Below are positions 51,751 through 53,445 of a DNA stretch of 64,000 nt, one piece after another; position 1 is the first letter of the stretch; each line of letters opens with the position of its first letter. A program made the translations under genes and the position numbers. Origin of the DNA: Stygiobacter sp. RIFOXYC2_FULL_38_25 (GTDB lineage Bacteria; Bacteroidota; Ignavibacteria; Ignavibacteriales; Melioribacteraceae). The stretch spans positions 124,001 through 188,000 of the forward strand of contig MHAZ01000012.1 of assembly GCA_001803165.1 (NCBI GenBank), read 5' to 3'. The notes beneath the pieces were generated by a model, which was not told where the DNA came from, ran no database searches, and was given only the letters and a program-made list of their open reading frames with translations.

Positions 51751-51926
51751 AAATCCCTCGGCTGGTTAATAAATCGGTTTTCCTCAAAACCGCGAAACAA
51801 AAATATTCTATTAGCACTTCTATGGTGTGACAGCAAACATCGGAATAGCAACAGTGTGGGGCGCATCAAGCTGCTGGAAGCAATGATTTTTGTGATAAAA
51901 AAAATCTATTAGAAAGTGTATTTACT

Positions 51927-51958
51927 CTTGACGGGAAGCCGAAACTAATTTACCTTTG
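51927..51958 (+). promoter_or_regulatory. Bacteroidetes-type promoter of the trp leader
   Basis: CTTG (51927-51930), 20-nt spacer, TACCTTTG (51951-51958). The -7 box is exact. Transcription would start within about 5 nt of the leader ATG at 51963, so the leader peptide may be translated from a leaderless message; no Shine-Dalgarno is visible. Confidence 0.72.
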
Positions 51959-51962
51959 CCCC

Positions 51963-52031
51963 ATGAATTTTAGAAATCAAAATAGCGCAAATAATTGGTG
52001 GTGGTGGAGAAAACTCTCTCTGCTATCCTAA
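51963..52031 (+). CDS. trpL: trp operon-type leader peptide with four consecutive Trp codons
   Basis: A 22-residue frame containing NSANNWWWWRKLS, with TGG TGG TGG TGG at 51996-52007. It starts 4 nt after an exact -7 promoter box and is followed by an alternative stem and a terminator before a tryptophan synthase beta gene. This is the layout of transcription attenuation: a ribosome stalled at the Trp codons when Trp-tRNA is scarce leaves 52020-52028 (CTGCTATCC) free to pair with 52058-52066 (GGATGGTAG, nine pairs, two of them G-T), which overlaps the terminator stem. A ribosome reaching the stop codon covers 52020-52028 and lets the terminator form. Four tandem Trp codons by chance are very unlikely. 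Confidence 0.85.
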   Translation: MNFRNQNSANNWWWWRKLSLLS

Positions 52032-52050
52032 TGCTATAAATATTTTTATT

Positions 52051-52086
52051 AAGCCGTGGATGGTAGAACCGTTCACGGCTTTTTTA
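52051..52086 (+). terminator. Attenuator terminator upstream of trpB
   Basis: AAGCCGTG pairs with CACGGCTT around a 15-nt loop, followed by TTTTTATT. It lies between the Trp-rich leader peptide and the trpB-type gene. GCCGTGAAC at 52093-52101 can pair with the 3' arm (GTTCACGGC) as a further alternative structure. Confidence 0.85.
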
Positions 52087-52143
52087 TTGCCCGCCGTGAA
52101 CCGGTCTATCTGAATTTTATCAAACACTAAACAAGAGGTTCAC

Positions 52144-53445
52144 ATGTCTAGCAACAAAATAGTTTTTCTCGAACAAAAACAAATGCCAACTCATTACTAC
52201 AACATTCTGGCAGATTTACCGGTGCCGATGGAGCCGCCGCTTCATCCCGGAACAAAGCAACCGGCTGGACCGCAAGATTTATCGGCAATTTTCCCAATGG
52301 ATTTAATAATGCAAGAAGTATCGCAAGAAAGATTTATAGAAATTCCGGATGAAGTTCGCGATCTCTATAGAATAAGCAGACCAACACCACTTGTGCGTGC
52401 GGCTAATCTTGAAAATGCTCTAGGAACTCCGGCCAAAATTTATTTTAAGTATGAAGGTGCAAATCCAACCGGAAGCCACAAAACAAATACTTCTTATCCG
52501 CAAGCGTATTACAATAAAAAAACCGGTATTAAAAAATTGGTTACGGAAACCGGAGCGGGACAATGGGGAAGCGCGCTTTCAATGGCTTGCAAGCATTTTG
52601 GAATGGAATGTGAAGTGTTCATGGTGAAAGTGAGCTATAATCAAAAACCGTATCGAAGAACTTTTATGAAGTTGTTTGGCGCGACTGTTCATGCGAGCCC
52701 AACTAATCTTACAAACGCCGGAAGAAATGTTTTGGAAAAAGATCCCGATTCACCTGGCTCACTTGGAATTGCAATTAGCGAAGCTATTGAAGTTGCGGTT
52801 CAACGAGATGATACAAATTACAGTTTGGGCAGTGTGCTTAATCATGTAATGCTTCATCAAACTATTATTGGTGAAGAGGCAAGAAAGCAAATGGAAATGG
52901 TTGATGAATATCCTGATATTGTAATTGGATGCGCTGGCGGCGGAAGCAATTTTGCCGGACTATCATTCCCGTTTTTACGCGATAAATTAGCCGGCACAAA
53001 CAAGAATATGGAAGTAATTGCTGTTGAACCGGCTTCGTGTCCTTCGCTTACACAAGGCAAGTTTGAATATGATTTCGGTGACGAAGCCGGAATGACACCT
53101 TTGCTAAAAATGTACACGCTCGGTCATCAATTTATTCCGCCAAAAATTCATGCCGGCGGATTGCGCTACCACGGGATGGCGCCAACTATTTCACACCTTT
53201 ACCATCATGGATTTATAACAGCAAATGCTTACGATCAGGTTGAAGTATTTGAAGCGGCTCAATTGTTTGCGCAAACAGAGGGCTTAGTTCCCGCTCCGGA
53301 AAGTGCACACGCCGTTAAAGAAGCAATTGTTCAGGCGCTTAAATGCAAAGAAAGCGGCGAAGCAAAAACAATTTTGTTCAACCTTTCCGGTCATGGATTC
53401 TTAGACTTAGGTTCATACGAAATGTACCTTGAAAATCAATTATAA
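52144..53445 (+). CDS. trpB: Tryptophan synthase beta chain, TrpB2 type
   Basis: 433 residues, longer than TrpB1 (about 400) and with the N-terminal extension of the TrpB2 group ([18 protein letters not shown]). It is a PLP enzyme joining indole and serine to give tryptophan. The PLP lysine is in GSHKTNTSY, the phosphate-binding loop is [10 protein letters not shown] and LSGHGFLDL is near the end. There is no trpA beside it; TrpB2 is generally thought to work alone on free indole. The upstream Trp-codon leader and terminator indicate that it is made when Trp-charged tRNA is low. AGAGG precedes the ATG. Confidence 0.95.

Follow-up and report, generated by a model that had tools for sequence, protein, structure and literature searches.

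How is a stand-alone gene for a TrpB2-type enzyme controlled when it lies apart from the trp operon, and what might such control reveal about the use of free indole? The question is raised by a locus within a stretch of 64,000 nucleotides (the window) from Stygiobacter sp. RIFOXYC2_FULL_38_25, which belongs to a 4.4-Mb genome (G000:C12). A sequence-only reading of the window had proposed a Trp attenuator before trpB2, a proposal that conservation in relatives, covariation of both stems and identification of the gene by family models now support. It is very likely that trpB2 is governed by a trpL-type attenuator, in which a ribosome decides between termination and further transcription; given that the predicted product TrpB2 makes Trp from indole, the control would extend to the use of indole.

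Organization of the trpB2 leader

The locus comprises the following parts.

51928-51933, + strand: promoter-like element TTGACG, read by eye
51951-51958, + strand: promoter-like element TACCTTTG, read by eye, just upstream of the ATG at 51963
51963-52031, + strand: leader peptide frame of 22 codons, MNFRNQNSANNWWWWRKLSLLS followed by a stop, from open reading frame translation
51996-52007, + strand: four consecutive Trp codons (TGG x4), the putative sensor, from the sequence and the frame translation
52029-52031, + strand: leader stop codon
51994-52032, + strand: strong 1:2 hairpin, arms 51994-52010 with 52017-52032, from the minimum-energy fold
52019-52028, + strand: segment 2, 5' arm of the antiterminator, from fold, alignment and covariation
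52058-52067, + strand: segment 3, 3' arm of the antiterminator, from fold and covariation, with 52058-52064 lying within the 5' arm of the terminator
52051-52081, + strand: 3:4 intrinsic terminator T1, 14 pairs, 3-nt loop at 52065-52067
52068-52079, + strand: segment 4, 3' arm of the terminator, from fold and covariation
52080-52085, + strand: T run of T1
52093-52105, + strand: element 5, GCCGTGAACCGGT, behind the T run, complementary to segment 4
52135-52143, + strand: ribosome-binding site (RBS) GAGGTTCAC, adjoining the trpB2 start
52144-53445, + strand: trpB2, TrpB-like pyridoxal phosphate (PLP) enzyme of 433 aa, from family models

All parts of the Trp-codon leader that had been described ahead of a TrpB2-type gene are present: the 22-codon frame, the TGG x4 run, the terminator and trpB2 itself. 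The gene product scores 670.2 bits against TIGR01415, above the curated cut-off of 518.85 that defines TrpB2 membership, and 737 bits against NF009057 (cut-off 366), and its nearest named relatives by TrpB2 are Melioribacter, Stygiobacter and other Ignavibacteriales. The promoter named in the sequence-only reading holds up by eye as TTGACG and TACCTTTG, the latter presumably a Bacteroidota-type -7 motif, but a sigma-70 scan lists no site at these elements (51928-51958). Most relatives have similar promoter-like elements directly 5' of the leader start (by eye).

In the window, the leader frame starts 4 nt 3' of the -7 motif and has no Shine-Dalgarno sequence. The likely leader starts of relatives lie mostly 4 to about 12 nt behind the promoter-like -10/-7 element (by eye), and among the starts listed, a Shine-Dalgarno-like site accompanies one alternative start only, a TTG of locus L022. 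These short distances and the near absence of Shine-Dalgarno sites point to a near-leaderless RNA as the probable template for leader translation; a leaderless trpL is known from Sinorhizobium. At two other loci, L016 and L171, the Trp leader begins a few bases past the apparent end of a tRNA gene (by eye), a proximity by which a near-leaderless start may arise there through tRNA 3' processing.

The leader RNA folds with a z-score of -5.6, and none of 200 shuffled sequences folds equally well. The antiterminator appears when the upstream part and the 3' arm of the terminator are omitted from the fold. The alternative stem of the sequence-only reading exists but measures 10 bp (52019-52028 with 52058-52067) rather than 9 bp, and its overlap with the terminator arm, put there at about three bases, is actually 7 nt (52058-52064) plus the three loop bases. 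Once the overlap of segment 3 with the terminator 5' arm (52051-52064) is counted correctly, the switch, previously called not fully explained, loses its puzzle, as the two stems exclude each other in the ordinary way.

In the proposed mechanism, RNA polymerase would begin at or next to the leader AUG, and a ribosome would follow. A shortage of charged tRNA-Trp would make the ribosome wait at one of the four UGG codons; a ribosome footprint extends about 12 nt past the A-site codon, and a ribosome waiting on any UGG would leave segment 2 free. The freed segment would capture the emerging segment 3, so that the terminator could not close and trpB2 would be transcribed. When Trp is ample, the ribosome at the stop codon would cover segment 2, T1 would close and transcription would end. 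TrpB2 would make Trp from indole, and the switch would parallel the separate attenuator of the trp operon. Leader translation, stalling, Trp dependence and the TrpB2 reaction are all deduced here from sequence.

A probable separate attenuator for the trp operon

The window's genome contains 30 matches to TGGTGGTGG, some of them overlapping, and at only two of these places is a frame no longer than 60 codons followed by a terminator within about 130 nt, namely the trpB2 leader and the trp-operon leader, MTKQILNIENKLNRGWWWHILNNRITQ. This restriction indicates that the trp operon and trpB2 probably carry separate Trp attenuators. The operon lies on another contig (L135) and comprises trpEGDCF, a DAHP synthase gene, trpB1 and trpA, with trpA, trpB1, trpC and trpD assigned by family models and the other genes by eye; trpB2 is thus located apart from a trp operon bearing trpB1, as is the case for TrpB2_o genes. 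The operon's WWW leader and terminator (L135:3514-3660) have letters unrelated to those of the trpB2 leader. In them, CTCAGTGA of the leader could pair with TCACTGAG of the terminator (by eye), which is not the best fold.

Conservation and covariation in relatives

The sequence-only reading had suggested searching relatives for Trp-rich leaders before trpB2 and checking the two stems for covariation, and both analyses came out in favor of the attenuator. Loss of the Trp codons or terminator across relatives, which that reading had named as refuting, was not what the comparison showed. Full-length TrpB2 matches of at least 67% identity occur in 38 genomes of the order, and 36 of these loci have both leader and terminator. 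The two exceptions are G054, which lacks the Trp codons, and G163, in which the contig ends too early. The G054 locus (L012), from a close relative, retains a degenerate terminator remnant before trpB2, an apparent loss of the switch as judged from its sequence. Genome G138 was left out of the 38 owing to its partial TrpB2 gene; it also has a Trp leader.

In families f4, f5, f10 and f14 of the same taxonomic class, Trp leaders and terminators were found, several with other letters. A set of 53 loci was composed of the 36 and 17 same-class loci (ten from f4, four from f5 and one each from f10, f14 and f19), omitting L192 (contig too short), L211 (an uncounted attenuator) and redundant copies such as L036, L048 and L050. 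The leaders of relatives contain two or more Trp codons, and at 52 of the 53 loci the leader frame has a standard start codon; the remaining locus, L210 (f19), has Trp codons and a terminator, with no standard in-frame start codon. Farther afield, a Trp-rich leader and a terminator also lie upstream of TrpB2 at L057, L061, L066 and L071, whose records bear the labels KSB1, Caldithrix, Spirochaetes and Flavobacteriia.

Covariation was assessed in an alignment of 38 leaders (A1), from which L195 was excluded for its unrelated letters; all pair counts come from A1 and not from A2 (14 loci). For the antiterminator, 91.8% of cells are paired, compared with 28-53% in slid-arm controls, and five of ten pairs are changed on both sides (34 cells), with neither the covariation score nor the number of paired cells matched in any of 500 shuffles. 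The terminator shows 95.3% paired cells and three of 14 pairs changed on both sides (a count reached in 8 of 500 shuffles), and its covariation score is likewise unmatched in 500 shuffles. By the features testable in sequence, the trpB2 leader is a trpL-type attenuator, with a short frame containing tandem Trp codons, mutually exclusive stems in suitable positions and a target gene for Trp synthesis as assigned by family models.

At lower TrpB2 identity (about 59-65%), 43 further order-level matches were obtained, a few of them partial; none of the 37 that were read has the same layout, and several have other Trp leaders. A different type of Trp leader before trpB2 was seen at L032, L120, L179, L180, L184, L189, L223, L224 and L226, as well as at L119, L126 and L185, with a frame that in most cases closes with WWLSC or with WWP and a few further residues (by eye). 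In this type, a compact hairpin (GGCCTC..GAGGCC or CTTTCC..GGAAAG) contains or adjoins the Trp codons and stop; a second, varying hairpin often lies downstream, and there is no T run (by eye). No Rfam match was found in the five loci tested. Leaders ending in WPWRR precede trpB2 at L031, L121, L182 and L187, where no terminator was seen. At L070, L072, L083, L100, L103, L106 and L113, most of which carry the label Neomarinimicrobiota, the frame of a TrpR-like repressor reaches the region before trpB2 (by eye), in most cases with a short Trp-containing frame between. In Tepidanaerobacter (L059:189-489), a T-box (123 bits) is located before TrpB2.

Alternative explanations for the leader

Two other kinds of device were weighed against the attenuator. 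The leader could be a ligand-binding riboswitch or a protein-bound RNA, as proposed for the trpB motif of Firmicutes (RF04312), with which it shares a hairpin and terminator layout and a sub-threshold match of 30.3 bits (gathering cut-off 59). However, RF04312 exceeds its cut-off in none of 30 genomes, sub-threshold matches occur at many other places, with the best one in the window's own genome (31.4 bits) lying elsewhere, and the conservation beyond stems 2, 3 and 4 lies in the Trp run of an open frame and not in a folded core, all of which makes this explanation highly improbable. The presence of Trp in the leader and of WWP motifs near the stop codon in some relatives might instead recall TnaC-like arrest, in which the ribosome is arrested by free Trp and trpB2 is thereby induced; here, however, the UGG codons lie beside an intrinsic terminator and the antiterminator is located just past the stalled ribosome, a layout that implies induction by Trp shortage and not by Trp. 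Arrest of this kind seems improbable in the extreme, and a trpL-type attenuator remains the preferred reading.

Complementarity downstream of the terminator

Beyond the terminator, element 5 adds a further potential pairing. The region 52064-52108, containing segment 4 and element 5, folds at -19.1 kcal/mol, and GTGAACC of element 5 is complementary to GGTTCAC in the RBS. One group of relatives has a second terminator whose 5' arm is this same element, and in many relatives element 5 likewise complements either the RBS or a second terminator. The complementarity is real and well supported, and a regulatory role for it is a candidate suggested by these sequences.

One possibility, which we hold at somewhat under an even chance, is that the attenuator is extended by further exclusive pairings, so that one stalled ribosome sets two or three gates. 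When 2:3 forms, the free segment 4 would pair with element 5, blocking the second terminator where relatives have one and freeing the RBS; when 3:4 forms and polymerase leaks through, element 5 would close the second terminator or cover the RBS. Under these assumptions, the chained hairpins 1:2, 2:3, 3:4, 4:5 and 5:6 or 5:RBS would gate the terminator(s), the trpB2 RBS or both, and the locus would be a multi-lock indole-salvage switch with one sensor, a design that we put forward tentatively and regard as doubtful. The other explanation, to which we give nearly even chances, is that terminator duplication left element 5 and the second terminators behind as mere relics, or that they are fail-safe tandem terminators, their likeness to segment 4 having no regulatory role of its own; second terminators with similar arms are indeed plain in the L019-L030 group.

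The distribution of the complementarity bears on both explanations. Pairing of segment 4 with the 70 nt that follow it is better than in shuffles (p <= 0.05) at 44 of 53 attenuators, compared with 11 of 59 other terminators, a background that still includes some attenuators on the opposite strand: its best eight members include four of the same devices on the opposite strand, the uncounted attenuator L211 and the trp operon's own terminator. That downstream complements also follow some other terminators of these genomes fits relics or tandem terminators. Set against these is the recurrence of the complementarity in other families with other letters, being significant at eight of ten f4 loci and all four f5 loci, mostly with different sequences such as GTTCCCAC with GTGGGAAC (in the 70-nt test, two of these 12 loci, L212 and L220, narrowly miss the 0.05 level). 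It also persists at L004, L005, L010 and L014, where no second terminator is visible by eye, yet element 5 matches segment 4 at nine of nine pairs.

Chained gating is further favored by matched changes in arms 3, 4 and 5 of L175 and by changes on both sides at four of nine 4:5 pairs (as high in 7 of 500 shuffles), but the 4:5 covariation is much weaker than that of 2:3, with six cells changed on both sides, a count that 43 of 500 shuffles reach. For the RBS, GGTTCA is found in it at 15 of 16 A1 leaders with CGTGAA in the interval between terminator and RBS and at none of the 22 without it, although these 15 loci are close relatives and not independent, and L210 has CGTGAA with no matching RBS. 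Predicted RBS accessibility is higher in the ON state at 12 of 15 loci, but the changes range only from -0.16 to +0.37, with just +0.03 in the window, and 24 of the 53 loci show significant complementarity to the RBS. The close relatives L007, L008, L009 and L011, moreover, keep the attenuator without element 5, which counts against chained gating.

Comparison with known systems

Within the window, Rfam at gathering thresholds yields a single tRNA, with neither the trpL family RF00513 nor a T-box, and RF00513 is also absent among matches up to an E value of 10 at 51900-52200. The trpL attenuator of the E. coli trp operon (RF00513) resembles the trpB2 leader in its tandem Trp codons, 1:2, 2:3 and 3:4 hairpins and intrinsic terminator before a Trp-synthesis gene, whereas the trpB2 leader differs in belonging to another phylum, having no Rfam match, carrying four adjacent Trp codons, being probably near-leaderless, serving trpB2 as its single target and containing the extra element 5. 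Two layers of control within one leader are known from TRAP regulation in B. subtilis, which employs a protein instead of a leader frame. In the available text on the Salmonella mgtCBR tandem attenuators (PMC3641672), two control layers also share one leader, but they rely on two leader frames, in contrast to one frame with possibly chained hairpins here.

According to the parts of the literature at hand, Trp attenuators of Actinobacteria likewise combine leader peptides bearing double or triple UGG codons with competing hairpins (Seliverstov et al. 2005, PMC1262725), whereas they precede trp operons or trpS2, and the 'trpB2A' of C. diphtheriae in that study is a second operon with trpA and not a stand-alone gene. 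The trpB motif RF04312, as presented in the available portion of PMC11109978, has a similar hairpin, antiterminator shoulder and terminator and sometimes precedes trpB, but it occurs in Firmicutes and Fusobacteria, lies mostly before a transporter gene and is filed as a riboswitch candidate, with its authors leaving a classic attenuator possible. The TrpB2_o genes are comparable in being stand-alone TrpB2 genes in genomes with an operon trpB1 (PMC1854888), but the accessible parts of PMC1854888 and PMC2700814 describe no RNA switch before trpB2. A survey from 2010, as far as its accessible text goes, considered leader-peptide systems unproven outside Proteobacteria and Actinobacteria except for ermC and added one in Firmicutes (PMC2965389). 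A literature search in which subscription journals were scarcely covered retrieved no account of attenuators in Ignavibacteria or upstream of a stand-alone trpB2.

Implications for indole salvage

The link to free indole drawn in the sequence-only reading gains support from the gene content of the leader-bearing genomes. A trpA profile search took in 57 genomes, four of which lacked both leader and trpA; among the 53 with the leader, trpA exceeds its cut-off in 36 and fails to do so in 17. One of these 17, G031, has trpC and trpD. The other 16 have no trpA, TrpB1, trpC or trpD above the cut-offs of the family models, leaving TrpB2 as the sole late Trp-synthesis gene detected. Ten of the 16 are at least 93% complete (G053, G017, G032, G049, G034, G156, G145, G089, G365 and G314), with one further TrpB-like match, below cut-off, in G365; in incomplete genomes, absent trp genes may reflect missing sequence. 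Since the attenuator is kept where TrpB2 is the only late trp gene found, its probable effect is to switch on free-indole recycling.

TrpB2 has been termed indole-scavenging in the accessible text of PMC2700814, and work cited in the available part of PMC11085991 reports that Thermococcus kodakarensis salvages indole. Retention of a Trp attenuator before TrpB2 hints at function through regulation, and its presence in the absence of other late trp genes would back the published indole-scavenging idea, as worded in the accessible text of PMC2700814, from a new side. These findings extend leader-peptide attenuation to Ignavibacteriales and families related to them, for which the literature covered by our search contains no earlier report of it, and point to a possible multi-gate design driven by a single leader peptide. 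The idea that stand-alone TrpB2 scavenges indole thereby becomes directly testable.
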